DNA from: Halorubrum salipaludis
Lineage (GTDB): Archaea; Halobacteriota; Halobacteria; Halobacteriales; Haloferacaceae
NCBI RefSeq assembly: GCF_002286985.1
Contig: NZ_NSKC01000005.1
Coordinates: 248,001 to 312,000 of the forward strand
Reading direction: 5' to 3'
DNA length: 64,000 bases
The position numbers and the translations under genes were made by a program. The notes under the pieces were generated by a model. The model was not told the origin of the DNA. It searched no databases and saw nothing but the letters and a program-made list of their open reading frames with translations. Positions 6,964-24,209 of the stretch are shown here, in pieces (position 1 is the first letter of the stretch; every line of letters starts with the position of its first letter).

Positions 6964-9159
6964 TCAGAACGCCTCGGCGACGGCCGCGACGACCGCGTCC
7001 TCGACCGCGTCGCGCTCGCCGGAGAGGAACTCGATCTTCCCCTCGCGGAGGCCGGCGGTGGCGACGTCGGCGCCGGGCGCCAGCTCGGCCGCGCGCTCGG
7101 CCACGTCGCGGACCGACACGTCGGCGGTCGTCCGGATAAACAGCTCGTCGGTGCCGATGCCGACGGTCGCGTACGCCTCGCCGTCGGCGTTCCGGCGGTG
7201 CAGGTCGTCGAGCAGGAGCGGCGTCGGCGGGAAGTCGTAGCGGTGGGTGTAGCCGTCGGTGTCGAGCACGGCGAACTCGACGCCGTCGACCGCCTCGGTG
7301 ACGACGTTCGCGGTCGCGGTCTGGACCTCCGTCTCCAGCTTCTCGCGGAACTGCTCGGAGACGTGGGCCGCGAGGTTGCCGCCGTCCTCGAAGAGGAGGT
7401 CGGCGACGAGCTCGCGTTTGTCCTGGTACGACTGGTAGTACGCCTCAAGCGCGATCGCCTCGCGGAGCTCCGCGACGCGCTCGGCGTCGTAGCCCGCGTC
7501 GCGGGCGAGCTGGGCGTACCGGTCGGGGGTCTCCGTCCAGTAGCTCACCGCCGGCAGGTGCCGGAGGTCGTCGCGGACCTCGTCGTTGACCGCGGAGGCC
7601 AGCGAGGCGACGAGCGCGCCGGTCGAGAGGTCGGCGTCGACGCCGTCGATCTCGGGCGAGACGAGGGTGTCGACCGCCTCGCGCGTCTCGGGGTCGGCGA
7701 CCTCGGCGTCGACGACGACCGCGTCGACGCCGTAGACCGACAGCAGGTCGATGCCGTCGGCGGACTCGACCGTCGAACCGGTCCCGACGAGCAGGAACAG
7801 GGGGAGCTGCTCGTCGTGGCGGTCGCGGTCCTGGAGCATGCGGGTCGCGTCGTTGGTCGCCGCGTCCATCCCGTACACCGGGTCGTCGAGAGGGCGGCGG
7901 GTGAAGTAGTGGTACTCCGCGTCGCTCTTCGCGTGCTCGTCGCGGATCAGCGGGAGCACGGCGCGCTCGACCGCGGCGCCGGCGACGTAGCCGTCGGCGG
8001 TCGCCGGGTGGCGCACGACGATCGGGCGCGACTCGAGGACCGCCCGGCGGATCGCCTCCGCGGCGTCGAGCAGGCCGTCGGCGAGCTCCGCGACGGCCTC
8101 GTCGCCGGCGAGCGGCTGGAGCCCCTCGGGGCGGGCCTCGGCGGTGAGCGCCTCGGCGAGGCGGCGGCGGACCGACTCGGCCTCCTCGCCCTCCAGTCGG
8201 ACGAGCGCCTCGGACTCGACCTGCACGTCGCCGCGGTGGCTCTCGACCTCGCCGTCGATCCGCACCGCGTCGCCGACCTCGACCTCCGGGTACGCGCGGA
8301 CGCCGGGTTCGACGAACGCGGCCACGTCGACGACGCCCGTCTCGTCGCGGACCTCGAAGACGGTCGGCCCGCCCGTCTGTCGGACGCTGACGACTTCGCC
8401 GTCGATCCGCACCTCGTCGCCGACGGCGTCGGCGAGGGTGCCGATCCCGACGCGCTCGCGGTCGTCGTCGAGGTCGTCCGTGTCGTCTTCGTCGGCCTCT
8501 GCGGCCTCGGCGGCTTCGTCGGTTTCGGTCGTGTCGTCGGCCTCGGCGGTCTCCTCGACCGCGACGTCTGTCTCTTCGTCGGCCTCGTCGGACGAAGCGT
8601 CTACCGCCTCGGCGGGCTCGGAGGGCTCGTCTGTCTCGACCGGCTCGTCGGCTTCGTGCGTCTCGTCGACCTCGTCACTCTCGTCGAAGTCGGAGGTGTC
8701 GCCGCTCGTGTCGGATTCGGCCTGTTCCGCGTCGCTCTCCGTGTCCGCCTCCGCGTCGGCCTCCTCGCTGTCCTCCTCGGGGAGGTGCTCGGTGTCGCCG
8801 TCCTGCACGAGCACGCCGCGGAACTCGCGGTCGGCCTGCCGGATCGACCACGCGAGGTCGATGTTCCCGTTGTCGCGGACGCCCTTCACCTGCACGAACA
8901 CCTCATCGCCGGGCTCCCAGTCGAGGCTGTCGAGCCGCCGGTCGAGCTCAGAGCGGTGGAGGAGTCCGGTCACGCCCGGCGCGAGGTCGACGAACACGCC
9001 GAACTCGGCGTAGCCGTCGACGACCCCGCGGTAGAACCGGCTCGGAACGAGCTGGTCGGCGGAGTTCCCTCGGAAGTCGAACACGACGTCCTCCTGGTGG
9101 GGGCCGCAGATGCGACCGCCACCGCCGACGTCGGCGCCACAGATGATACAGGATCCCAT
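6964..9159 (-). CDS. DHH-family (RecJ-like) phosphoesterase with zinc finger, S1 and OB domains, active-site motifs degenerate
   Basis: A 731-residue protein. Residues 1-21 form a zinc-binding CxxC...CxxH (C4, C7, C18, H21). Residues 36-108 are an S1 RNA-binding domain (FYRGVVDGYAEFGVFVDLAP). Residues 120-235 are an extremely acidic, Thr/Asp/Glu-rich linker. Residues 243-325 are an OB fold (VRIDGEVVSVRQTGGPTVF), and from about 375 on is the DHH/RecJ-like domain with the C-terminal DHHA1-type segment. The usual HxDxDG motif reads RHPATADG and the DHH motif reads VVVDAEV, so key metal ligands appear missing. A role with replication or RNA processing complexes is possible, as for inactive RecJ/Cdc45-like proteins. 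Single gene, convergent with its left neighbour. Confidence 0.85.
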   Translation of the reverse strand: MGSCIICGADVGGGGRICGPHQEDVVFDFRGNSADQLVPSRFYRGVVDGYAEFGVFVDLAPGVTGLLHRSELDRRLDSLDWEPGDEVFVQVKGVRDNGNIDLAWSIRQADREFRGVLVQDGDTEHLPEEDSEEADAEADTESDAEQAESDTSGDTSDFDESDEVDETHEADEPVETDEPSEPAEAVDASSDEADEETDVAVEETAEADDTTETDEAAEAAEADEDDTDDLDDDRERVGIGTLADAVGDEVRIDGEVVSVRQTGGPTVFEVRDETGVVDVAAFVEPGVRAYPEVEVGDAVRIDGEVESHRGDVQVESEALVRLEGEEAESVRRRLAEALTAEARPEGLQPLAGDEAVAELADGLLDAAEAIRRAVLESRPIVVRHPATADGYVAGAAVERAVLPLIRDEHAKSDAEYHYFTRRPLDDPVYGMDAATNDATRMLQDRDRHDEQLPLFLLVGTGSTVESADGIDLLSVYGVDAVVVDAEVADPETREAVDTLVSPEIDGVDADLSTGALVASLASAVNDEVRDDLRHLPAVSYWTETPDRYAQLARDAGYDAERVAELREAIALEAYYQSYQDKRELVADLLFEDGGNLAAHVSEQFREKLETEVQTATANVVTEAVDGVEFAVLDTDGYTHRYDFPPTPLLLDDLHRRNADGEAYATVGIGTDELFIRTTADVSVRDVAERAAELAPGADVATAGLREGKIEFLSGERDAVEDAVVAAVAEAF

Positions 9160-9294
9160 TTGAGTACACCGAGAGCCTCGCGCCTAAAACGGTTGTCGAA
9201 AGCCTCGCGGGAGCGAACGGCCGGCTGCGGCCGCGGAGCCGCCGCGTTCAGCGGTGATCCGGGAAGCGCCCCGTCGGGACGGTTCGAGCCGCGG

Positions 9295-9909
9295 TCACGC
9301 GATCAGCGATCGGAACGCGGCGACGGCGCGGTACCCGATCCCGTACCCGAGGAGGGCTGGCGGGACCCCGGCGATCAGCGTCCGAATCGGCCCCGTCCGG
9401 TGGACGGTGTGGAACCCGATCAAAAGCAGCACCGCCGCGTAGACGCCGCAGGCGACCCGAAGCGCCGGGATCGGCGGGCCGGCCAGCGCCATCGGCGAGC
9501 TGGCGTACGCGACCACCTGCACCGTCTCGCTCACGCCGCCCCGGTCTCGCAGGGCGACCCCGCCGTCGTACTCGACGCTGGCGAGGATCACCGACAGCGT
9601 CGCGACCGCCGCGGTCAGGTGGAGCCCGACCGGCGCGGCCAACACGACCACGAGGAGGAACAGGATCGCCGCGGAGACGGGGAGCGAGACGACGATCCCG
9701 GGGACGACGCTCGGGTCGGCGAGGATCCAGCCGAGCGCGTAGGCGGCGGCGACGGCGACTGCGAACGTCAGCGCCGGGGCCTGATCGCCGGGCCCCACGC
9801 CGTTCGCGAAGAGGCGGCGCGGCCGGATCAGCGCCTCGACCCACGCCCGAGCGAGCGCGCGGGGTCCGCGGGCCCGCCCGCCCTCCGGCTCCTCGATCCA
9901 CGATGTCAC
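9295..9909 (-). CDS. Yip1-family-like membrane protein
   Basis: A 204-residue protein with about five predicted transmembrane helices after a cytoplasmic N-terminus containing ARAWVEALIRPRRLFANGV, which resembles the entry segment of Yip1/DUF1282-type proteins. Helices include LTFAVAVAAAYALGWIL and VSAAILFLLVVVLAAPVGL. The central VVAYASSPMALAG motif (a kinked helix with Tyr-Ala-Ser-Ser-Pro) is characteristic of the family. Its function is unknown; family members are implicated in membrane trafficking in eukaryotes, but no such role is shown in archaea. It stands alone, divergent from the pilin-like gene. Confidence 0.75.
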   Translation of the reverse strand: MTSWIEEPEGGRARGPRALARAWVEALIRPRRLFANGVGPGDQAPALTFAVAVAAAYALGWILADPSVVPGIVVSLPVSAAILFLLVVVLAAPVGLHLTAAVATLSVILASVEYDGGVALRDRGGVSETVQVVAYASSPMALAGPPIPALRVACGVYAAVLLLIGFHTVHRTGPIRTLIAGVPPALLGYGIGYRAVAAFRSLIA

Positions 9910-10055
9910 GGTCGTCCTTCGGGCGGGTGGAATAACCGGGTTCCGGTTCGGATCGGAGGCGCGGGAGCGGGCAGCCGGTGACGATCCGCTCGCGTTATCT
10001 CGGCTGATAGCCGGCGCGCAAAGCCTTATACGGCCCCTCGCGGAGAGACACGCGA

Positions 10056-10511
10056 ATGAGTGCGTTCCGGAACGACGAACGGGGGTTCACCCCGATAGCC
10101 GGCTCGGGGATGCTCGTCGGCATCGTCGTGGTGCTGTTGGCGCTCGTCGGCGCCGCGGTCTTCGGCATGATCGACGGGGTCGCGCCTCCGGACGCGGAGT
10201 TCCAGATCGAGAAGGAGGGCGCCGACCTCGTGGTCGTCGCGGTCGGCCCCGAACCGGTTCCGGCCGAGGAGCTGTACGTTCGCGGCGAGGACCCCGACGA
10301 GGAGGTGCAGTTCGGCGCGTGGCCCGGCGACGGCGTCGTGCGGCCGGGCGATCGGGTGACCGTGCCCAACGCGACCGGGAACGAGGACATCGAGGTCGTC
10401 TGGGAGCCCGTCGCCTTCGACACGTACGAGAAACTCGGCACCTACAACGGCGAGGACTCGGCGATCGAGGGCAGCGCCGGACGGGACCCCCTCGGGGCGA
10501 CCGGCGTATAA
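10056..10511 (+). CDS. Type IV pilin-like protein with archaeal pilin N-terminus
   Basis: A 151-residue protein. The N-terminus NDERGFTPIAGSGMLVGIVV has the positively charged leader, Gly before the likely PibD cleavage site and the following hydrophobic helix of archaeal type IV pilin-like proteins. The rest is an acidic extracellular beta-rich domain without cysteines. It is predicted to sit in the membrane or be assembled into a surface filament. A CTTATA element at 10026-10031 lies about 27 bases before the ATG, so the mRNA is probably leaderless. No pilus ATPase or platform gene is nearby, so it must use machinery encoded elsewhere. Confidence 0.75.
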   Translation: MSAFRNDERGFTPIAGSGMLVGIVVVLLALVGAAVFGMIDGVAPPDAEFQIEKEGADLVVVAVGPEPVPAEELYVRGEDPDEEVQFGAWPGDGVVRPGDRVTVPNATGNEDIEVVWEPVAFDTYEKLGTYNGEDSAIEGSAGRDPLGATGV

Positions 10512-10525
10512 ACGCGCTTTCCGAG

Positions 10526-11665
10526 CTACGCCACCGACACCCACTCGCCGCGCTCGTCGGCGCGCACGATCGCGTCGAGGAGCCGCTGGACCTCGTACCC
10601 CTGTTCGAACGACGGCTCGAACGCGCCGCCCTCCGCGACCGCGGAGAGGAACTCGTAGTTCTCGTGCACGAACGTGTGCTCCCACCCGATCACGTGACCC
10701 GGCGGCCACCAGTGGTCGACGTACGGGTCGGTCTCGTCGGTGACCAGCACGGTCTGGTACCCGCGGTCGCCCTCGCGGAGGACCTCCAGTTCGTTGAGCC
10801 GCTCTAGGGAGAACTTCAGGCTCCCCTTCGAGCCGTGGACCTCGATCGTGTGGTCGTTCTTGTGGCCCTCGGCGAACCGGGTCGCCTCGAAGCTCCCGAT
10901 CGCGCCGGACTCGTAGGCGACCTGCGCGGTGTAGGCGTCGTCGACGGTCACGTCGCGGTACTCCTCGACCTCGCCGCCCCCTCCGCCGTCCCCGTCGGCG
11001 TACACGGGTCGCTCGTCGACGAACGTCTGCAGGTGGCCCGAGACGCGGTCGACGCCCCCGACCTCGCCGCCGACGAGGAAGTCCGCGAGGTCGAGCGTGT
11101 GCGCGCCCAGATCGCCGAGCGCGCCGGAGCCCGCCATGTCGGCGTCCAGCCGCCACGCCCACGGCGCGTCGGGGTCGGCGAGCCAGTCCTGGAGGTACCG
11201 CCCGCGGACCTGCCGGATCTCGCCGAGCTCGCCGTCCTCGATCAGCCCCTTGGCGTACCGGATCGCGGGGACGAACCGGTAGTTGAACGCGGTGCCCGCG
11301 GGCACGTCGGCGTCCGCCGCGGCGTCGCGCATCGCCTCGGCCTCGTCGAGGGTCGGAGCCAGGGGCTTCTCGCAGAGGACGGGGACGCCGGCGTCGAGGG
11401 CCGCTATCGACGGCTCCGCGTGGACGTGGTTCGGCCCGAGGTTGTAGAAGACGTCCACCTCGTCGATCGCCGCCTCCCAGTCGGTCGCGGTGTGCGAGAA
11501 CCCGAACCGCTCCGCGGCGTCCGCGAGCGCCGACTCGTCGCGCCCGACGAGGGTGTGGCGCTCGACGTCGGGCGCGTCCGGGAAGAACATCGGGAGCCGC
11601 GCGAGCGCGTTCGAGTGCGCCTTGCCCATGAACCGATACCCGAGCACGCCGACGTCGAGGGTCAT
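10526..11665 (-). CDS. Gfo/Idh/MocA family oxidoreductase
   Basis: A 379-residue NAD(P)-dependent dehydrogenase of the Gfo/Idh/MocA type, acting on a sugar or polyol. The N-terminal Rossmann motif is VGVLGYRFMGKAHSNALAR. The hallmark EKP motif appears in VPVLCEKPLAPTLDEAE, and a C-terminal alpha/beta domain follows with SGALGDLGAHTLDLADFLVG carrying the conserved DLGxH substrate-side signature. The substrate cannot be read from sequence. A sugar isomerase/epimerase gene lies 860 bases to the right on the same strand, beyond a divergently oriented channel-like gene, hinting at a common carbohydrate route. It converges on the pilin-like gene. Confidence 0.9.
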   Translation of the reverse strand: MTLDVGVLGYRFMGKAHSNALARLPMFFPDAPDVERHTLVGRDESALADAAERFGFSHTATDWEAAIDEVDVFYNLGPNHVHAEPSIAALDAGVPVLCEKPLAPTLDEAEAMRDAAADADVPAGTAFNYRFVPAIRYAKGLIEDGELGEIRQVRGRYLQDWLADPDAPWAWRLDADMAGSGALGDLGAHTLDLADFLVGGEVGGVDRVSGHLQTFVDERPVYADGDGGGGGEVEEYRDVTVDDAYTAQVAYESGAIGSFEATRFAEGHKNDHTIEVHGSKGSLKFSLERLNELEVLREGDRGYQTVLVTDETDPYVDHWWPPGHVIGWEHTFVHENYEFLSAVAEGGAFEPSFEQGYEVQRLLDAIVRADERGEWVSVA

Positions 11666-13576: not shown

Positions 13577-14929
13577 CTACCGGTCGTTCGGTCGGTCGAG
13601 GTCGAACAGGCGGTCGGCCGCGTCGATCGTCTCGCCGTCGCCCGCCCGCGCGGCCTCCTTGAGCCGTTCCGTCGGGGTCGCCAACAGCGACGCGGTCAGC
13701 GACCGCATCGCGTCCTCCAGCACCGCCTCGGGGTCGGTGTCGCCCGCGTCGAGCCGGGTCCGGGCGCGTTCGAGCTCCGCCTCCCGGACCGCCTTCGCCT
13801 CGCGGTGGAGCGCCCGGAGCGTGTCCTCCGCGCGGGCCTCCCGCTCGCGGTCGAGGAAGCGCTCGACGGCGGCCGCGACGCGGCGCTCGACCGCGGGCGC
13901 GGCCGCCCGGCGGACCGAGAGCCCGTCGGCGACCCGAGCGCGCACGGCGTCTAACCCGACGACGCGCGGGTCGTTCTCGCGGACCGCGGGGGCCGCGTCC
14001 GGCGGCGTCGCCAGGTCGACCACCGTCGCCGTCCGCGGGAGGGCGGCGGCGGCCTCGGCCCCGAACACCGGGTCGGTCGCTCCCGTGGCGGTGACGACGG
14101 CGTCCGCGTCGGCGACGGCTTCCGGGAGCGCCCCGAGCGACAGCGTCTCGCCGCCGCCGGCGGGCAGGTCGCTCTCCGGAGACCGGCTCACGGCGTCGAC
14201 GCGGAGGTCCCAGCGGGCCGTCGCGGCCGAGACGACCTCCGCGCCTATCTCGCCGGTGCCGACGACCACGAGGCGGTCTGGCGCCCCCGAGCGGCCGGCA
14301 ACGACGTCGCAGGCGGCGCTCCCGTAGTCGACGGTCCCCTCGTTGATCCGCGTCTCGTCGCGGACCGACCGCCCCGCGGCGAGCGCGGCGTCGGCCGCGC
14401 GGGTGAGGACGCCGCCGGCGAGGTCGGCCTCCCGTGCGGCCTCGAACGCGCGCCGGAGCTGGCCGAGCACGTGGTCCTCGCCGAGGATCGGGCTCTCCAG
14501 CCCGCACGCGAGCCGCGTCAGGTGTTCGACGGCGGTCCGCCCGCGCTCCACGCGCGGGTCCGGGACGCCGAGCGCCTCGCGGGCCGCCCGGATCCCCGTC
14601 TCGCGGTCCGCGGCCGTGCGCGTGGCGACGAACACCGCGGCCCGCTCGCACGTCTCGACGGCGACCGCCCCCGTCACGCGGTCCGCGTCGGCGACCCGGC
14701 GCGCCGTCGCGACCGGGTCGTCGATCGCCCGGCCGACGGCCGCCCCGGATCGGTCCGACCCGGTGATCCGACAGCACACGAGCCGCCGGACGCTCTCGGG
14801 GACCGGGTCGTCGCGTCCGGTCGGTTCCGCGTTCGCGTCGGTTGCGGCGGTCGCGTCGGTTCCGTCGGTCGCGTCGGTCGCGTCGGTCGCGTCAGTCGGG
14901 CTCTCCCCGTCGCGTTCGAGTGCGGGCAT
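13577..14929 (-). CDS. hemA: Glutamyl-tRNA reductase (heme d1 operon copy)
   Basis: Catalyses NADPH-dependent reduction of glutamyl-tRNA(Glu) to glutamate-1-semialdehyde, the first step of tetrapyrrole synthesis. The protein has 450 residues. The catalytic cysteine is C94 in VAVETCERAAVF. Further marks are LGEDHVLGQLRRAFEAA, the NADPH-binding LVVVGTGEIGAEVVSAA, and the dimerisation helix rich in Ala/Arg/Glu at the end. The first 45 residues are an unusual Thr-Asp-Ala repeat tail. The open frame continues upstream, but the ATG at 14929 fits the operon, 8 bases after the radical SAM gene. Its N-terminal catalytic domain (CRITGSDRSGAAVG) is divergent, so it could be a paralogue dedicated to heme d1 supply. 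Confidence 0.88.
   Translation of the reverse strand: MPALERDGESPTDATDATDATDGTDATAATDANAEPTGRDDPVPESVRRLVCCRITGSDRSGAAVGRAIDDPVATARRVADADRVTGAVAVETCERAAVFVATRTAADRETGIRAAREALGVPDPRVERGRTAVEHLTRLACGLESPILGEDHVLGQLRRAFEAAREADLAGGVLTRAADAALAAGRSVRDETRINEGTVDYGSAACDVVAGRSGAPDRLVVVGTGEIGAEVVSAATARWDLRVDAVSRSPESDLPAGGGETLSLGALPEAVADADAVVTATGATDPVFGAEAAAALPRTATVVDLATPPDAAPAVRENDPRVVGLDAVRARVADGLSVRRAAAPAVERRVAAAVERFLDREREARAEDTLRALHREAKAVREAELERARTRLDAGDTDPEAVLEDAMRSLTASLLATPTERLKEAARAGDGETIDAADRLFDLDRPNDR
14835..14897. repeat. 9-bp in-frame minisatellite in hemA
   Basis: Seven consecutive 9-bp units close to GCGTCGGTC cover 14835-14897 inside the 5' end of the glutamyl-tRNA reductase gene. On the coding strand they encode a Thr-Asp-Ala/Gly repeat. 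Because the unit is a multiple of three, copy-number change would lengthen or shorten the N-terminal tail without breaking the frame. Confidence 0.85.
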
Positions 14930-14937
14930 GGTCGGTG

Positions 14938-16149
14938 TCAGTCGGAGGCGATCGGCGCTTCGACCGGCCCCTCGTCCGGGAGGTCGGCGCACCGCTCCGC
15001 GTCGGTGAGGTAACAGCGCGGGTCCTCGGCCCACAGGTCGTCGTGGACCGCCGCGGCCCGAGCGCGGGAGTTCCCGCCACACACCTCCTTCCACGGGCAC
15101 TCCCCGCACGCGCCCTTCAGGTGCGCGGACGGCTCCGCGAGCCGGTCCCACAGGTCGCTGTCTGTCAGGATCTCGTCGAGCGAGCGCTCCCGGACGTTCC
15201 CGAGCGTGTACTGCGGGAGGAACATGCTCGGGTGGACGTTCCCGAGGTGGTCGACGTTGACCACCTTCGGCCCGGCGTCGCCGTTCTTCACGACGCGACC
15301 GGGGCCGTCGTCGAACAGCAGCCGGCGCGCGCGCTCGGCGCGCTCCGGCGACTCCTCGCGGATGCGGCGGTAGAGGTACACCGCGTCCGCGTAGTTGCCG
15401 GCGGTGAGCACCTGCATGTCCGGATGGGTCTCCGTGAGCTCCGTCGTCCGCTCGTAGAGGTAGTCGACGGCCTCGCGCGTCCGGTCGAACGGGAGGTCGG
15501 CGTCCGTGATGTCGCCGCCGCGGCCGGAGTAGATGAGGTGGAACACGTTGACCCGGTCGACGTCCTCCTCGACCGCCAGGTCGATCACGTCGGGCACGTC
15601 GTCGACGGTCCCGCGGGTCATCGTCGTGCGGATCCCGACGCTCATCCCGGCGTCGCGGGCGTTGCGGAGCCCCTCGCGGGCGCGCTCGAACGCGCCGTCG
15701 ACGCCGCGGAACGCGTCGTTCGTCGCCCCGACGCCGTCGAGCGAGACGCCGACGTACCGGAGCCCGGCGTCGGCAAGCTCCCGGGCGCGCTCCTCGGTGA
15801 GGAACGTCCCGTTGCTCGACGCGATGGGGCGGATCCCGCGGTCGACGGCGTGTTCGGTCAGCTCCCTCAGGTCCTGGCGGACGAACGGCTCGCCGCCGCT
15901 GAACACCAGCACGGGGACGTTCAGCTCGGCCAGCGAGTCGATGAACCCCTTCGCCTCCGCGGTCGACAGCTCGCGCTCGTCGCGCTCGTTGCACGCGCCG
16001 AAGTAGCAGTGGCGACACGCGAGGTTACACGCCTCGGTGACGTTCCAGACGACGAGCGGCACGACGGCGTCGCTCGACCGCCGGCCCTCGTACCGGATCT
16101 CCTCGGGCCGGTTGTCGAGCCCGCGGATCAGCCGCGTCAGGTCGATCAT
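14938..16149 (-). CDS. nirJ: Radical SAM protein, NirJ/AhbC-like heme d1 biosynthesis enzyme
   Basis: A 403-residue radical SAM enzyme. The 4Fe-4S cluster for SAM is held by C41, C45 and C48 (TEACNLACRHCYFGAC), followed by the SAM-binding FSGGEPFVRQD. The C-terminal SPASM-type cysteines (CGECPWKEVCGG) hold an auxiliary cluster. VNVFHLIYSGRGGD is typical of the NirJ/AhbC heme group of enzymes, which remove propionate or acetate side chains from siroheme-derived intermediates. Placement next to NirF-like proteins and a d1 enzyme favours NirJ (heme d1) over AhbC (heme b). The start overlaps the preceding propeller gene by four bases (ATGA), indicating translational coupling. Cytoplasmic. Confidence 0.85.
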   Translation of the reverse strand: MIDLTRLIRGLDNRPEEIRYEGRRSSDAVVPLVVWNVTEACNLACRHCYFGACNERDERELSTAEAKGFIDSLAELNVPVLVFSGGEPFVRQDLRELTEHAVDRGIRPIASSNGTFLTEERARELADAGLRYVGVSLDGVGATNDAFRGVDGAFERAREGLRNARDAGMSVGIRTTMTRGTVDDVPDVIDLAVEEDVDRVNVFHLIYSGRGGDITDADLPFDRTREAVDYLYERTTELTETHPDMQVLTAGNYADAVYLYRRIREESPERAERARRLLFDDGPGRVVKNGDAGPKVVNVDHLGNVHPSMFLPQYTLGNVRERSLDEILTDSDLWDRLAEPSAHLKGACGECPWKEVCGGNSRARAAAVHDDLWAEDPRCYLTDAERCADLPDEGPVEAPIASD

Positions 16150-17285
16150 GCGTCCACCTCCGGGCGGAAGATGCCGCTCGGCTTCTCACCGAGTCCCCCG
16201 ATGCGGTCGACGACGCGAACGTCCCCGGGGCGGCCCTCGCGGAGCGGCGCGGTATCGAGGACGGCCACCTCTCGCCGCTCCATGTTGCCGACGTAACAGC
16301 GGTCTCCGTCCGGCCCGAACACGAGGTGGAGCGGCTCGCCGCCGACCTCGACCCGCCCGACGACCTCGCCGGCAACCGGATCGAGGACGGTGACGCGCTC
16401 GTCCTCGTAGGCGTCGACGAGCGCGTAGCGCCCGTCCGGGGTCGTCGCGGCGAATCCCGTCGGCGTCCCCACGTCGACGAGGCCCGTCGTCGGGTCGGTG
16501 TCGCCCGCGGCGGCTTCCGTGAGGGAGACGATCGCCACCCGGTCGTCGTCGCGCGCGGGCACGACCGCGTAGCGCCCGTTAGGCCCGTCGCCGACGGCGA
16601 ACCCGTGCGGGTTCCCCCCGGTCGTCGCGGTCGCGCGGACGGCCTCGGCGGCGGGGTCGACGAACGAGACGCGCGAGGCACCGGCGTTGTTCACCGCGAT
16701 CAGCCCCCCGTCCGGGAGCGGGTACATATCGTGCGGCTCCGGGCCGACCGGGATCCGGGCGTCGACGTCGAGCGCCGGGTCGGCGGCGAGGGCCGCGACC
16801 TCGCCGGCGTCCTTCAGCCCGACGAACAGCCGCCCGTCGGGACCGATCCCCATGCCGGAGCACCGCGAGAGCGCCCGGCTCCCGACGGGGTCGAGCAGCC
16901 CCTCGCCGTCGACCGCGAACGCGAGCACGCCCGGGTCGTCGCGGTCGGGGAGGCCCACGCCGGTGCCGACGAAGAACAGCCCCTCGTCGGGCGCGAACGC
17001 GCTGCCGACCGGCATCGTCCCGAGGCGGTCGATCCGCTGGCGGGTCTCCAGCCGGTCGAGGTCGACGACTTCGAGGTGGGCGCTGGCGATGTACAGCAGG
17101 TACGCCACGCCGGCGTCGCGGTTGAAGACGGCGGTGTGCGGGTACCGGCCGTCGCCGACCTCGCCGACCACCTCCCCGCGGGACAGGTCGAGGACGCTGA
17201 AGTGGTCGCTCGCGGCGTTTTTCACTATCGTCGGCGTCGCCGCCGATGCGGTGCCGTCGATCGCTGCGTCGTGTCGTTGTGTCAT
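16146..17285 (-). CDS. NirF-like cytochrome d1-type beta-propeller protein (copy 1)
   Basis: A 379-residue soluble propeller with repeating YVTN-like blades such as GRYPHTAVFNRDAGVAYLL, VPAFGPDEG-like turns, and EPLHLVFGPDGDRCYVGNME. It resembles NirF, the protein that processes dihydro-heme d1 late in heme d1 synthesis. A histidine in the first blade (RYPH) is a candidate heme ligand. No signal peptide or lipobox is visible, unlike periplasmic NirF of some bacteria, so it is probably cytoplasmic. Its stop overlaps the NirJ-like start, and its own start overlaps the second propeller gene by four bases, both as ATGA. A role as maturation factor or heme d1 carrier is inferred. Confidence 0.75.
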   Translation of the reverse strand: MTQRHDAAIDGTASAATPTIVKNAASDHFSVLDLSRGEVVGEVGDGRYPHTAVFNRDAGVAYLLYIASAHLEVVDLDRLETRQRIDRLGTMPVGSAFAPDEGLFFVGTGVGLPDRDDPGVLAFAVDGEGLLDPVGSRALSRCSGMGIGPDGRLFVGLKDAGEVAALAADPALDVDARIPVGPEPHDMYPLPDGGLIAVNNAGASRVSFVDPAAEAVRATATTGGNPHGFAVGDGPNGRYAVVPARDDDRVAIVSLTEAAAGDTDPTTGLVDVGTPTGFAATTPDGRYALVDAYEDERVTVLDPVAGEVVGRVEVGGEPLHLVFGPDGDRCYVGNMERREVAVLDTAPLREGRPGDVRVVDRIGGLGEKPSGIFRPEVDA

Positions 17286-18424
17286 CGTTTCTCACCTCTG
17301 TCCGTTCTGAAACAGCCGGCCGGCGCGACCCCGTCCTCGAACGGGACCGTCGCGATCACGGGGTCCCGGCCGGTCCCGACCGCGGCCGTCTCGACCACGG
17401 TCACGCGGTCGCCGTCGACGCTGGGGACGTAACAGACCGCACCGTCGGCGCCGAACCGCGGGTGGCGCGGCGTCTCCCCGACCGGAACGCGGCCGACGAC
17501 TGACAGCGTCTCCGGGTCGAGGAAGGCGACCCGGTCGTCCGCGTAGGCGTCGACCGCGACGAGCCGCCCGTCGGGCGTCGCGTCGGTGAACGCGGTCGGA
17601 GTGCCGAGCGACACGCGCTCGACCGACGCCGGGCCGGTCTCGCCGTCGCGGAGCGCGGCCGCGTCGATCGCGGTGACGCCGTCGCCCTCCGTGTCGCCGA
17701 CGATCCACCGGTCGTATGCGGTGAGGACGGTCCCACCGCGCGGGTTCGGTGCCGGCACCGACCCCAGCACCCGGCGGTCGAGCGCGTCGACGACGGTCAC
17801 GCGGTCGCCGTCGGCGCAGTTCACGCCCAGCAGCTCGTACGCCGGCGAGTACGTCAGGTCCTGCGGCCCGGCGGCGACCGGGAGCCGATCGCGAACCTCG
17901 AACGGGGGGCTCCCGTCGATCCGGACCACCTCGTCGGCGTCGGCGGCGACGACCCACACGTCGTCGCGCGCGTCCGCGGCGATCCCGGCGGCCTTCCCCA
18001 CCGGGCGTTCGGCCGCGACGGAGACCTCCGCGCCGTCCGTCCGCAGGACGGTCACCCCCGGAACGTCCCCGGACGGCAGCGGCCCGTAGGTGCTCACGAA
18101 CAGGTGGCGGCCGCCGCGGGTCGCCGCGGCGCCGACCGGCGCGGTGCCGACGGCCTCGACGCGGTTCGCTACGGTCAGCCGCCGCAGGTCGACGACCTCG
18201 AGCTCGTTCGACCCCATGTAGGGGACGTACCCGTATCGGCCGTCCGGCGACCGGACCAGCCCGTGCGGCTGCCGGCCCGAGCCGACCCGGCCGACGACCT
18301 CGTGCGCGGTCGCGTCGACGACCGCGAGCCCGGGCGCGCGGAGCCGCTTGACGAACGCGAGCGGTCCCTCCGGTGCCGGCGGCGGACTCGCCTCCTCCGT
18401 CGGGTCGGCGTCGGTCCGGGACAT
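17282..18424 (-). CDS. NirF-like cytochrome d1-type beta-propeller protein (copy 2)
   Basis: A 380-residue propeller paralogous to its downstream neighbour. It shares the first-blade motif GRVGSGRQPHGLVRSPDGRY and YVTN-type repeats, for example DRLVAVDAYADDRVAFLDPE-like blades. No signal peptide is seen, so a cytoplasmic location is likely. The two copies might form a heterodimer where bacteria use one NirF homodimer, or one copy may be a NirN/NirF-like carrier; sequence alone does not decide. The ATG at 18424 is taken as start; a GTG at 18430 is possible. The gap to the CuA-d1 stop is 10 bases or fewer. It ends in a four-base ATGA overlap with the next gene. Confidence 0.72.
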   Translation of the reverse strand: MSRTDADPTEEASPPPAPEGPLAFVKRLRAPGLAVVDATAHEVVGRVGSGRQPHGLVRSPDGRYGYVPYMGSNELEVVDLRRLTVANRVEAVGTAPVGAAATRGGRHLFVSTYGPLPSGDVPGVTVLRTDGAEVSVAAERPVGKAAGIAADARDDVWVVAADADEVVRIDGSPPFEVRDRLPVAAGPQDLTYSPAYELLGVNCADGDRVTVVDALDRRVLGSVPAPNPRGGTVLTAYDRWIVGDTEGDGVTAIDAAALRDGETGPASVERVSLGTPTAFTDATPDGRLVAVDAYADDRVAFLDPETLSVVGRVPVGETPRHPRFGADGAVCYVPSVDGDRVTVVETAAVGTGRDPVIATVPFEDGVAPAGCFRTDRGEKR

Positions 18425-18434
18425 GGTCACGCGG

Positions 18435-20330
18435 TCAGTGGCCCTCGGCCCGGGTCCCGAGGAACTTGCCCGTCGGCGCGAGCAGTCCCTCGATCTGGTC
18501 GAGCAGTTCGCCAGTGTTCGGGTCGAACACGAGGATCGACTGGTTCTCGCCCATCCAGCCGCTGATGTACACCTTCTCGCCGTCGCGGCTGAACTCCGGA
18601 TGGATGGCGGCGGCGACGCCCCACTGGCTGCAGTCGATCTCCTGAGCCACCTCTAAGCTCTCCGGGTCGATCAGGTAGACGTACGCGTCGTCCTCGGTGT
18701 CGGTCAGGATCACGTCGGCCCACACGTAGTCGCTGTTCTCGTGTTTGCGGATGAACAGCCCCGACCCGCGGACGTCGATCATCTCCTCGACGTCCCACGT
18801 GGACGTGTTCCAGACGCCGACGCTCGGCGCACCGGCGTGGGTCGTGAACGCGAGGTCCTCGTCGGGGTACAGCGCGCCCGGCCCCGGGTGCGGGACGCCG
18901 TCCATCGGGATGGCGGCGACGTGCTCCCGCTCCTGGGTGTCGATCACGTCCATCTGGTTGTCCGTCTGCGAGGCGATCATGAAGTAGCGGCCGTCGTCGG
19001 TGAAGAAGCCGTCGTGGAGCGTCCGGCCGCAGTCGATGGTGGCCACCACCGGGAAGTCCTCCTGGGTGTAGTCGATGAGCCACACTTCGCCGCCCTCCTT
19101 CAGGCCGGCGAGGAACAGCCCCTCCTCGGGCACGTCGTACAGCGAACACACCCGGCTCCCGACGCTCTGCCCGTCCGGGTCGACGGTGTGGGTCGGGATG
19201 CGCTTGACCGGCTCCATCGTCTCGGCGTCGCAGACCACGAGGTGGTTCGGGTTGTAGAAGCCGCCGATCACCCATTCGCCGTCCCGAGAGACGGCGATGT
19301 CGCGGGCGTCGGTCCCCGCGTCCGCGACCGCGACGCGCTCGAAGCCGAACAGGTCGATCTTGTACATCTCGCCCTGCCGCGACTGGGTGTAGACGTACGC
19401 CCCTTCGCGGCTCTGCTCCGGCAGCTCCGGGTGGAAGTCGTGGACGTGGATCGCCTTCCCCACGTCCTCGACGCGCTCCAGCAGCTCGTCGTTGACGGTG
19501 TCGATCATCGCCACCGAGGCGTTGTTGCGCTCGGTGACGACCATGAGGTCGCGGAGGTCGAGGTCGTGTTCCGGCTCGGCCGGCAGCTCGCTCTCCTCCG
19601 TGATCACCTCGTGGCGGTCCTTCAGCGTCTGCATGTCGGTGAAGTCGACCTTCTCGATCGACTCCCCCTCGGGGACGACGTACAGCTGGCCGTTCATCTG
19701 GGCGTGGCCGTCGCCGCAGTAGACGTTACACTCGAAGTCGAAGGTCCCCTCCTCCTCGGTGACGAACGTCACCGAGTCGATCACGTCGTCGTCCGTGCTC
19801 TCCGGGAGCTCGATCGGCCCGATGTCGTACGGCTCCTCGAGGTAGAACGTGTGGACGGTGAAATCCTGGTTCTTCTCGAAAGTGGACTGCGTGAACTCAA
19901 TTGTGAGCTCGGTGTTCGGCGGGACCCGGATCTCCTGCGGCTGGAACTCGTACTGGTGGGCCTCCAGCTGGACGGTCTCCGACTGCGCGGCGTCGGTCTC
20001 GCCGTCGGACGCCGACTCCGATCCGGACTCCGGATCCCCCTCTTCGTCGGTCGATTCCGACGGCTCCGACTCGCCGCTACACCCCGCGAACGCCCCCGCC
20101 GCCGCGACCGCGCTCGTGGCGAGGAACCGCCGCCGATCGGGCTTCGGAAGCCCCATCTCGAAGTCGAGCGCGTCGTCGAACTCCAGGTTCGACGCGATCT
20201 CGCGCGACGCGCTGAGGTGGCGTTTGATCCGTTCCTCGTGGTCCGCCTTCCGTTCGCGGTGGTCGGTCCGCTCCCGTTCGGACTTCTGGTCTCGGTCCTC
20301 CGTCTCTCGGGGCGTCGTGGGCTGTGACAT
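18435..20330 (-). CDS. CuA-domain / cytochrome d1 fusion, putative nitrite reductase (NirS-like)
   Basis: A 631-residue exported protein in three parts. Residues 1-64 are a highly charged extension; 65-84 are a Tat lipoprotein signal (DRRRFLATSA...AFAGC, C84). Residues about 118-222 form a cupredoxin domain with a full CuA ligand set: H160 (FTVHTFYL), C201, C205, H209 and M212 (CNVYCGDGHAQM). From about 255 to the end is an eight-bladed d1 propeller with the proximal histidine H295 (GKAIHVHDF) and both active-site histidines, H439 (RTLHDGFF) and H481 (GVPHPGPG), matching NirS LHDG and PHPG. The C-terminus LLAPTGKFLG also matches NirS. It lacks any CxxCH, so CuA replaces cytochrome c. Predicted reaction: nitrite to nitric oxide outside the cell. 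First gene of the operon. Confidence 0.88.
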   Translation of the reverse strand: MSQPTTPRETEDRDQKSERERTDHRERKADHEERIKRHLSASREIASNLEFDDALDFEMGLPKPDRRRFLATSAVAAAGAFAGCSGESEPSESTDEEGDPESGSESASDGETDAAQSETVQLEAHQYEFQPQEIRVPPNTELTIEFTQSTFEKNQDFTVHTFYLEEPYDIGPIELPESTDDDVIDSVTFVTEEEGTFDFECNVYCGDGHAQMNGQLYVVPEGESIEKVDFTDMQTLKDRHEVITEESELPAEPEHDLDLRDLMVVTERNNASVAMIDTVNDELLERVEDVGKAIHVHDFHPELPEQSREGAYVYTQSRQGEMYKIDLFGFERVAVADAGTDARDIAVSRDGEWVIGGFYNPNHLVVCDAETMEPVKRIPTHTVDPDGQSVGSRVCSLYDVPEEGLFLAGLKEGGEVWLIDYTQEDFPVVATIDCGRTLHDGFFTDDGRYFMIASQTDNQMDVIDTQEREHVAAIPMDGVPHPGPGALYPDEDLAFTTHAGAPSVGVWNTSTWDVEEMIDVRGSGLFIRKHENSDYVWADVILTDTEDDAYVYLIDPESLEVAQEIDCSQWGVAAAIHPEFSRDGEKVYISGWMGENQSILVFDPNTGELLDQIEGLLAPTGKFLGTRAEGH

Positions 20331-20406
20331 AGTGGTTCCCCTGAGCCGGATTTCGTCCGGTTCCGGCCAAAAGGTCCTGTATGGTTCCATGCGCGTTGGA
20401 AAATCG

Positions 20407-20432
20407 GTGAACATGTTCGCAGGAATATACTT
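20407..20432 (-). promoter_or_regulatory. Promoter of the CuA-d1 operon with 10-bp palindrome
   Basis: Upstream of the CuA-d1 gene the minus strand carries AAGTATATTCC (TATA-like, about 20421-20431), followed six bases later by the perfect palindrome GAACATGTTC (20409-20418). This places the palindrome near the -10 to start region, about 80 bases before the ATG at 20330, leaving an untranslated leader of roughly 70 nt. A regulator binding there would be well placed to control expression. It resembles, but does not match in spacing, the CGAAC-N4-GTTCG motif I recall for haloarchaeal denitrification promoters. Confidence 0.5.
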
Positions 20433-20545: not shown

Positions 20546-20995
20546 ATGTCTCGAGAGACCGACGCGGTACCCAGGGGGGACCGGATGACGCCCGCGTTCT
20601 TCGAGGACGTGCTCGCGGAGTACCTCGACGCGGACCGGATCGAGGAGGCCGTGGTCCGGCTGGAGCTCGACGACGGGACCACCAGGCGGGTCGTCGTCGC
20701 GGAGGACACCGAGTCGCTCGGTCCCGACGAGTACGCGGCCCGCGAGCTCGCGGAGGCCCGCCGGCTGATCGAGGGCCACGCCGACCGGTTCGAGGCCCCC
20801 GCCGAACTGACCGTCCCGGTCCGGGACGCCGACCGCGTCCGCGAGGAGATCGCGTCGGACGACGCGGTGACGACGTGGGTCAAGCCCGAGGGGGTCGCGC
20901 GGCTCCTCGGCCACTTCGAGGCGCTGACGCGAGCGGGCGAGACCGCGGACCCGGGCGCGTCGGTGGGCCGCTCCGAGGCGTCGGACGATCGCTGA
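20546..20995 (+). CDS. Haloarchaeal protein of unknown function
   Basis: A protein of 149 residues, or 136 from the ATG at 20585, which follows a purine-rich GGGGGGA. It is soluble, acidic and predicted mostly helical with alternating beta strands (IEEAVVRLELDDGTTRRVVV, ELTVPVRDADRVREEI). I do not recognise the family and see no catalytic motif. It is divergent from the CuA-d1 operon across about 215 bases that also carry the operon promoter, and 140 bases upstream of pspA on the same strand. No functional inference is warranted. Confidence 0.65.
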   Translation: MSRETDAVPRGDRMTPAFFEDVLAEYLDADRIEEAVVRLELDDGTTRRVVVAEDTESLGPDEYAARELAEARRLIEGHADRFEAPAELTVPVRDADRVREEIASDDAVTTWVKPEGVARLLGHFEALTRAGETADPGASVGRSEASDDR

Positions 20996-22074: not shown

Positions 22075-23121
22075 TCACTCCGACCGCGGCCGCGCCCCGG
22101 TCCCCGCGCGGTCGCGGTCGCCGAGCCGGATCTCGCCGCCGGCGAGGTCGACGCCGTCGTACGGGTCCTCGGCGAGCAGCAGCGAGCCGTCGAGGTCGGC
22201 GTAGTCGAGCAGGGGCGCGAGCTGCGCGGCCGCCGCGATCGAGGCGTTCGACTCGATCATGCAGCCGCACATCACCTCCAGCCCGTGAGCGCGGGCGGCG
22301 GCGATCAGTCGTCTCGCCTCCAGCAGGCCGCCGGTCTTCATCAGCTTCAGGTTCGCGATGTCGCAGCGGTCGGCCACCGCGGGGACGTCGGCGAGCGTCA
22401 CGCACGACTCGTCGGCGGCGATGGGGAGCGGGGAGCGCTCGTGGACGAACCGGAGCCCCTCGGGGTTCTCGGCGGGCACCGGCTGCTCGACGAACTCCAC
22501 GTCGCGGTCGGCGAGCCACTCGCACTTCCGGACCGCCTCCTTCGGCGTCCACGCCTCGTTGGCGTCGACCCGGAGCCGGGCGTCGGGCGCGGCCTCGCGG
22601 ACCGCGTCGATCAACTCGCGGTCCCGGTCGGTGCCGAGCTTGATCTTGAGCACGGGGTAGCCGGCCTCCACGGCCGCCTCCGTCTTCTCGCGCACGCGCT
22701 CCGTCTCGTCGAGCCCGATCGTGTAGGAGGTCGCGGGCGCCGCCGTCGGGTCGAGCCCCCAGAGCCGGTGGAGGGGGACGCCGAGCCGCTTCGCGGCGAG
22801 GTCGTGGACCGCGATCGAGACGGCGGCGCGGGCGGCGGGGTTGTCGTTGACGACGGTCGCCAGCTCGGCCTCGATCTCGTGGAGCGCGTGGGGGTCGCCG
22901 ACGCGCTCGACCGCGTCGAGCAGGTCCGGGAGCACGGCCGCGACGGTGTCCGCGGTCTCGCCGTAGTGCGACGAGGGGGCCGCGCCGCCGACGCCGGTCA
23001 TCCCCCCCTCGTCGGTGACCCTCACGATCACGTTCTCGGCCTCGGTCTGCGTCCCGCGCGCGATCGTGAACGGGTTCTCCAAGGGCATCGAGACCCGCTC
23101 GAACTCGGTTTCGAGGGTCAT
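22075..23121 (-). CDS. Enolase-superfamily dipeptide epimerase / N-acetyl-D-glutamate racemase-like (DgcA-like)
   Basis: A 348-residue muconate-lactonizing subgroup enolase-superfamily enzyme. The catalytic pair is KIKLG (KxK lysines) and LKLMKTGG; metal ligands are in RVDANEAW, FVEQPV and ADES. This set belongs to L-Ala-D/L-Glu epimerases. The gene overlaps the DUF1611 gene by four bases (23118-23121), the same pairing described for DgcA/DgcN in D-glutamate catabolism, where DgcA racemises N-acetyl-D-glutamate. Therefore either dipeptide epimerisation or N-acetylglutamate racemisation is possible. The long upstream frame is not used; ATG 23121 gives MTLETEFERV. Confidence 0.85.
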   Translation of the reverse strand: MTLETEFERVSMPLENPFTIARGTQTEAENVIVRVTDEGGMTGVGGAAPSSHYGETADTVAAVLPDLLDAVERVGDPHALHEIEAELATVVNDNPAARAAVSIAVHDLAAKRLGVPLHRLWGLDPTAAPATSYTIGLDETERVREKTEAAVEAGYPVLKIKLGTDRDRELIDAVREAAPDARLRVDANEAWTPKEAVRKCEWLADRDVEFVEQPVPAENPEGLRFVHERSPLPIAADESCVTLADVPAVADRCDIANLKLMKTGGLLEARRLIAAARAHGLEVMCGCMIESNASIAAAAQLAPLLDYADLDGSLLLAEDPYDGVDLAGGEIRLGDRDRAGTGARPRSE

Positions 23122-24209
23122 CGCTCGGCGACGCCTCCGTCGGCGGCCGCGTCGCCCTCGCCCAGCCCCGCCTCGACGATCCCGTCCACGATCCGATCGG
23201 CGCCGTCGCGGACCGGATCGGCCGACGGGGCGCCGATCTCGTCGCCGAAGTTGTCGACCGCGTCGGCGGCGGCCGCGTCGTCGTCGACGTCTTTCGTGTT
23301 GAGCGCACCGGCGACGACGCGCCCCTCGCTGACGGGGGCCGCGAGCCCCTCGTAGAGGTCGACGTACTCGGCGAGCGGCGGGAGCGAGAAGGACTCGTAG
23401 CCGTGGATCGCCTCGCGGCCCGCGGCGTGACAGAGCACGAGCCCGTCGGCCATCGAGCCGTGGAGGATGCCGCAGGTGACCGCCGAGTAGGCGGGGTGGA
23501 CGATGCTCCCCTGCCCCTCGACGACGAGGAGGTCGTGGTCGTCGCCGACCTCGACGAGCATCTCCTCGACCGCGCCGGCGGTGAAGTCCGAGACGACGCG
23601 GTCGATGGGGTTCCCCCACCCGGCGATCATGATCCCGGTCTGGCCGGTCGGGACGAACGCGGCGTCGATCCCGCGCTCGCGTGCGGCCGCGACGATCTCC
23701 AGCGAGGCCGTCATCTTCCCGACCGAGCAGTCGGTGCCGACCGTACACACCACGTCGGCGTCGATATCGCCGGAGGCGCCGGTGGCGACCGAGAGATCGT
23801 CGTCGGGCTCGCGCACGTCGATCAGGTCGACGCCGTGCTCAGCGGCCAGCGCCGCGAGTTCGTCGTCCTCGTTGAGGAAGTAGTGGAGCCCGCTCACCAC
23901 GTCGCAGCCGGCCTCGATCGCGGCCTCCACGTCGGTGCGCCACGACTCGTCGAAGCCGCCGCCGATGGGGGCGATCCCGATATATAAGGCGTCGAGGTCG
24001 CCGTCGGCGGCCGCGTACGCGTCGTCGAACGACGCGACGATCGGCGCGTCCGAGATGTCCGGGACGTGGTCGTGAACCCGGTCGCCGGCGCGGTCGCGGT
24101 CGAGCACGGCACGCACGTCCTGGTCGCCGTAGCGCATCACGCCAAGTGCGGTCTTCGCGCGGTCGGGGAACTTCTCGTGGGCGAGGATGGCGATCCGGTC
24201 GTCGCTCAT
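23118..24209 (-). CDS. DUF1611 family protein (DgcN-like N-acetyltransferase)
   Basis: A 363-residue protein with an N-terminal Rossmann-like part and a C-terminal P-loop NTPase-like part: VVCTVGTDCSVGKMTASLEI holds the phosphate-binding glycine/lysine, and LLVVEGQGSIVHPAYSAVT is the conserved DUF1611 signature. One family member, DgcN, acetylates D-glutamate. Adjacent overlap with the epimerase-like gene supports the same pathway here. A TTTTAAG element on the minus strand at about 24233-24241, 28 bases before the ATG, indicates a leaderless mRNA. It is first gene of the pair. Confidence 0.85.
   Translation of the reverse strand: MSDDRIAILAHEKFPDRAKTALGVMRYGDQDVRAVLDRDRAGDRVHDHVPDISDAPIVASFDDAYAAADGDLDALYIGIAPIGGGFDESWRTDVEAAIEAGCDVVSGLHYFLNEDDELAALAAEHGVDLIDVREPDDDLSVATGASGDIDADVVCTVGTDCSVGKMTASLEIVAAARERGIDAAFVPTGQTGIMIAGWGNPIDRVVSDFTAGAVEEMLVEVGDDHDLLVVEGQGSIVHPAYSAVTCGILHGSMADGLVLCHAAGREAIHGYESFSLPPLAEYVDLYEGLAAPVSEGRVVAGALNTKDVDDDAAAADAVDNFGDEIGAPSADPVRDGADRIVDGIVEAGLGEGDAAADGGVAER

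Follow-up and report, generated by a model that had tools for sequence, protein, structure and literature searches.

Which enzyme is encoded at a haloarchaeal locus where a propeller of the cytochrome d1 type follows a domain carrying copper ligands in place of heme c? Haloarchaea have been stated to have NirK as their only nitrite reductase (PMC8400030). The locus lies on contig NZ_NSKC01000005.1 of Halorubrum salipaludis, and the window analysed is the whole stretch of 64,000 nucleotides from position 248,001 to 312,000 of that contig. An initial annotation had described the gene product as a nitrite reductase-like fusion of a CuA domain and a d1 propeller, a design not known to have been characterised. 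We evaluated this description by profile, structural and genomic comparisons, and consider it probable that the gene encodes an exported haloarchaeal nitrite reductase of the NirS type, in which CuA has replaced the heme-c electron-entry domain.

Organization of the locus

The features of the locus are collected in Table 1. Codon usage favored the internal start over the upstream in-frame ATG; residues are nevertheless numbered here in the longer form, in which each number exceeds that of the shorter form by 28. The protein carries a signal for Tat export and is probably lipid-anchored; its match to the Pfam TAT_signal family was weak, and the RR..AGC pattern was conserved in nearly all members of the ortholog alignment.

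Table 1. Features of the CuA-d1 locus, in window coordinates (residues in 659-aa numbering)
Feature	Position	Strand	Details
CuA-d1 fusion gene	18435..20330	-	631 aa; start at 20330
ORF from first, upstream in-frame ATG (20414)	18435-20414	-	659 aa
Tat signal with lipobox-like AGC	20073..20135	-	residues 94-114 of 659; RRRFLATSAVAAAGAFAGCSG
CuA domain	19629..19997	-	residues 140-262; ligands H188, C229, C233, H237, M240
d1 propeller	18438..19565	-	about residues 284-659; H323 iron ligand, H467 and H509 catalytic pair
First NirF-like/YncE-like propeller protein	17282..18430	-	no signal peptide seen
Second NirF-like/YncE-like propeller protein	16146..17285	-	conserved operon gene
NirJ/AhbC-family radical SAM/SPASM enzyme	14938..16149	-	CNLACRHC; distinct from the AhbC that this genome also has
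Second glutamyl-tRNA reductase (HemA) paralogue	13577..14929	-	operon end
Divergent small ORF	20585..20995	+	no family match; conserved at 10/15 loci

Elsewhere in the window, both on the minus strand, are a gene for an enzyme resembling the N-acetyl-D-Glu racemase DgcA, which adjoins a partner gene (22075-24209), and an oxidoreductase gene whose top score, under the family's cut-off, was to levoglucosan dehydrogenase (10526-11665).

The N-terminal domain has the ligand pattern of CuA

The complete CuA ligand set claimed earlier as H160, C201, C205, H209 and M212 in the shorter numbering was found, within the motifs TVH188TF and C229NVYC233GDGH237AQM240. The Cupredoxin_1 family of Pfam matched residues 140-231 at E=1.5e-5, just short of its cut-off, and a profile of this domain made from 15 orthologues matched the solved CuA domains of the Thermus ba3 oxidase and of N2O reductase (best E=4e-6), with all five ligands in register with solved CuA structures in the profile alignments shown. 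Folded alone, the domain was modelled at pLDDT 82.9 and its top-ranked Foldseek matches were CuA structures; when the protein was modelled at full length, part of the ligand loop fell to pLDDT <50. VIA-align returned Z values of about 10-11 to many cupredoxins, including the CuA domains of N2O reductase and ba3; the fold alone is therefore not diagnostic of CuA. The diagnostic element is the ligand pattern, H followed by C-x3-C-x3-H-x2-M in a cupredoxin fold, which this domain possesses. It shares that fold and the H...CxxxCxxxHxxM arrangement with the CuA of cytochrome c oxidase subunit II, N2O reductase and eNOR subunit II, but here it is fused to a heme-d1 propeller and does not serve a heme-copper or CuZ site.

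The C-terminal domain is a d1 propeller of the NirS type

Cytochrom_D1 (PF02239) matched residues 286-653 with E=3.6e-75 and 253 bits, and a 520-residue model (pLDDT 80.6, pTM 0.82) contained the eight-bladed d1 propeller that is characteristic of NirS. VIA-align scored this model highest against NirS (Z about 48), then NirN (45) and NirF (39), whereas unrelated propellers did not exceed about 33; ranked by Foldseek E-value, NirN came first. Similarity to NirS started at the linker that follows its heme-c domain (residue 261 here, residue 121 or 139 in NirS), a pattern that resembles a swap of electron-entry domains at this point. The claim that CuA precedes a d1 propeller thus drew support from the profile match, from the models and from the position at which NirS homology begins. 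The absence of CxxCH, also claimed earlier, held for the protein of the window and for its 14 orthologues; the N-terminal heme-c domain of NirS is missing, with CuA in its place, in 15/15.

In NirS, His327 and His369 are the catalytic pair acting on nitrite, and His182 binds the iron (PMC7278500). The equivalents of His182, His327 and His369 are H323, H467 and H509, the histidines that the initial annotation had listed as H295, H439 and H481, and they were invariant in all 15 orthologues. The position of Pseudomonas aeruginosa His327 is occupied by H in the CuA-d1 protein (H467) and in all NirS compared, by D in NirN and by Y in NirF. Equivalents of NirS Arg156, Arg198 and Trp498 were also conserved. 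Arg372 was replaced by Pro, which counts against NirS function, although the heme-c-bearing NirS of Ruegeria shows the same change. In a phylogenetic tree, the haloarchaeal proteins formed a branch apart from NirS and NirN, at a fork with moderate support (86/89) whose depth is unsure given the long branches.

These proteins therefore resemble NirS of P. aeruginosa and Paracoccus pantotrophus in the propeller, its iron ligand, catalytic histidines and Arg/Trp positions, the linker and possibly the d1-synthesis-type gene neighbours, but differ in having a CuA cupredoxin for heme c, Tat/lipobox export, an archaeal host and a separate branch, and in that neither NirN nor NirC was seen with them. 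NirN and NirF have a similar d1-binding propeller and were tried as identities: NirN, recognised by a heme-c domain and Asp at the His327 position, does not fit a protein with His there and no CxxCH, nor does NirF, a propeller only with Tyr at that position, fit one with His and an additional CuA domain. Among plasmid records, the nearest NirS was of the Ruegeria/Aliiroseovarius type, with 39% identity over the propeller. This plasmid NirS (at 8593-10269 of both locus L069 and locus L070) is an unusual type with the Arg372 to Pro change, and its nir cluster also holds a plastocyanin/azurin-type or copper-binding protein and NapC/NirT.

The joining of a propeller to a CuA domain also occurs in NosZ, and the protein gave a weak match (44.5 bits) to the profile of the lactonase-type L-NosZ, but we judge it very improbable that it is a new nitrous oxide reductase of either kind. 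The cut-off of the L-NosZ profile is 700 bits, and Cytochrom_D1 scored 253 bits. CuA forms the N-terminal part of this protein but lies at the C-terminus of NosZ; the ligands of the propeller are those of NirS, its gene neighbours are of the heme-synthesis type, and the genome of the window has a NosZ of its own. Membership in L-NosZ (clade III lactonase-type N2O reductase) was rejected on the same scores.

The operon looks dedicated to a d1-type heme

The order CuA-d1 gene, two genes for NirF-like propellers and a gene for a NirJ/AhbC-type radical SAM enzyme was found at 15/15 loci, followed by HemA at 14 of them, and in the window these genes overlap or nearly abut. From this gene content the operon looks dedicated to heme d1. 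The NirF-like propellers matched NirF by hhalign (E about 1e-11) and were closer to YncE-like and surface-layer YVTN propellers than to NirF; given that closer match, their role is one that we infer. Bacterial NirF acts with the cytochrome NirC (PMC13168839). No counterpart of NirN or NirC was seen here, which leaves the exact cofactor unsure among heme d1, dihydro-heme d1 or a variant.

The radical SAM enzymes of the operon keep the CxxxCxxC motif; in the tree they grouped with neither bacterial NirJ nor AhbC, and they were distinct from the AhbC-/AhbD-like enzymes of the same genomes, additional enzymes of one or both of these kinds being present in all eight genomes checked. HemA of the operon was a second copy in 9/10 genomes checked, and paired siroheme decarboxylase-type genes are located elsewhere in the genome of the window. 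The combination of a distinct radical SAM enzyme, a second HemA and siroheme decarboxylase genes suggests an extra tetrapyrrole-synthesis branch behind the CuA-d1 protein.

An operon so rich in cofactor-synthesis genes and without NirN, together with the first place of NirN by Foldseek E-value, raises the alternative that the CuA-d1 protein is itself a maturation or carrier protein for d1 heme, similar to NirN or NirF, with CuA accepting electrons from a heme oxidation step. We consider this improbable, as the protein kept the second catalytic histidine, which NirN replaces by D and NirF by Y, VIA-align ranked NirS over NirN, and synthesis genes would make little sense in an operon lacking a user of the cofactor.

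Distribution among haloarchaea and previous reports

A search for the same fusion covered 391 sampled haloarchaeal genomes, and 15 of these, from three families, carry it in full-length form. All eight ligand positions of the CuA and d1 sites were invariant across these 15 genomes, down to about 50% identity, which argues that the architecture is not due to chance. Among the named relatives are Halorubrum amylolyticum (93% identity), five Natrinema species, one Natronomonas and two Halobiforma. The proteins formed two subgroups, about 50% identical, that both keep every ligand. That such patchy occurrence marks a degenerate or non-functional relic is scarcely credible, given the invariant metal ligands and the conservation of the operon in three families.

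No match to the fusion was found outside the haloarchaeal order in 325 genomes sampled across phyla, and a scan of all species with two patterns returned nine loci, all haloarchaeal, although these patterns suit close relatives only and bacterial fusions could escape them. None of the plasmid records contained most of the CuA-d1 query. Eight genomes (loci L017-L024) encode a d1-propeller paralogue of about 420 aa that has neither CuA nor signal, is probably cytoplasmic, and conserves the iron and catalytic histidines. It was placed in the tree between the two CuA-d1 subgroups, as if it had arisen by loss of CuA.

In the main texts of open-access papers, our literature search yielded no report on CuA replacing heme c on a d1 propeller, or on this operon. 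NirS fusions of Chloroflexi also bear a copper domain, an added N-terminal cupredoxin, but retain two cytochrome c domains (PMC8756737), which are replaced in the haloarchaeal protein. A 2024 study (PMC10999283) mentions a NirS-like clade of halophilic archaea, a Halobacteriota cytochrome d protein without cytochrome c, that was excluded from its phylogeny; in its main text this clade serves as outgroup only and no CuA domain is named. The clade very probably consists of the same proteins or includes the CuA-less paralogues. The reading in the initial annotation is tempered by this earlier notice of a NirS-like clade lacking cytochrome c, and by the NirK that the carriers already have.

The carriers are denitrifiers by gene content

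The genome of the window encodes two NirK, an eNOR-type oxidase homologue, NosZ and several halocyanins. NirK was present in 14-15 of the 15 carriers; the comparison with other genomes gave 14/15 versus 196/376 for NirK (Fisher p about 1e-3) and 14/15 versus 56/376 for an eNOR-like NO reductase (p about 1e-10), both p values being uncorrected for kinship. Next to the operon lie eNOR genes in four carriers, three of which also have an SCO1-type copper chaperone there, and the eNOR relatives beside the operon in carriers other than that of the window have HGTQQ in place of the tyrosine motif of oxidases. At locus L028 (1011-6726) and locus L036 (11080-19017), the operon is clustered with genes for eNOR-type subunits, for a CuA subunit and for a copper ATPase of the CopA type, with an SCO1-type gene in L036. 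Several Natrinema have a nitrate-reductase-like neighbour that could be assigned to the type II DMSO reductases as a family, but not to NarG.

The cytochrome c assembly family PF01578 was undetected in 12/15 carriers, including the genome of the window, and since most carriers would thus be unable to attach heme c, an electron-entry domain of the CuA type is a sensible one. The three carriers with PF01578 (CcmC/CcmF-like) are of the Halobiforma group (G085, G320 and G362, with loci L036-L038); CuA and not heme c is found in their proteins, too.

Cytochrome cd1 also reduces O2. It is possible, though unlikely in our estimation, that the CuA-d1 protein is a terminal reductase acting mainly on something other than nitrite or serving another purpose (O2, hydroxylamine, or the detoxification or sensing of NO/nitrite) and that NirK is the real respiratory enzyme. 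The coexistence of NirK with the fusion is in keeping with such a role, as are the typical occurrence of CuA in oxidases and NO/N2O reductases and a patchy distribution that follows eNOR more closely than NirK. However, both histidines of the NirS nitrite site are invariant, the carriers are denitrifiers by gene content with an adjoining NO reductase in some, and NirK together with NirS is known from some bacteria (PMC6167111). With NirK also present, the CuA-d1 protein would be a further, possibly redundant, nitrite reductase or would have taken on a shifted function.

Proposed function

The replacement of heme c by a CuA-type cupredoxin in front of a NirS-type d1 propeller is well supported by sequence comparison and modelling. 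A respiratory nitrite reductase is our best reading of its role, because the histidine pair is kept, the operon appears dedicated to d1 and the carriers are denitrifiers; copper and heme loading, electron transfer and nitrite as the substrate are what we infer for it.

We propose that the folded protein is exported by Tat, as its signal suggests, and that a lipid would anchor it outside the membrane. A small copper protein, probably a halocyanin, would reduce CuA, from which electrons may pass within the protein to the d1-type heme on propeller residue H323. By analogy with NirS, H467 and H509 would assist the binding and protonation of nitrite, and the NO released would be passed on to the NO reductase of the cell. 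As the gene content suggests, the cofactor would probably be made by the extra HemA, the NirJ-like enzyme and the two NirF-like propellers, starting from didecarboxysiroheme that is already formed en route to heme.

We lean, somewhat less firmly, toward the broader proposal that the CuA-d1 protein adds a third design to NirK and cytochrome cd1 among the nitrite reductases that form NO, and that it is fed by halocyanin and has its own archaeal d1-heme pathway without c-type cytochromes (no NirC, no NirN), in cells without heme-c assembly. The fusion shows a catalytic module of the NirS type in haloarchaea, switched from heme c to CuA, most carriers having no detected heme-c assembly protein. 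This suggests that respiratory enzymes can acquire a different electron-entry domain to suit the electron carrier of the cell, and that heme d1 synthesis may do without c-type cytochromes. Surveys of nirS that demand a heme-c domain would overlook this group of candidate nitrite reducers.
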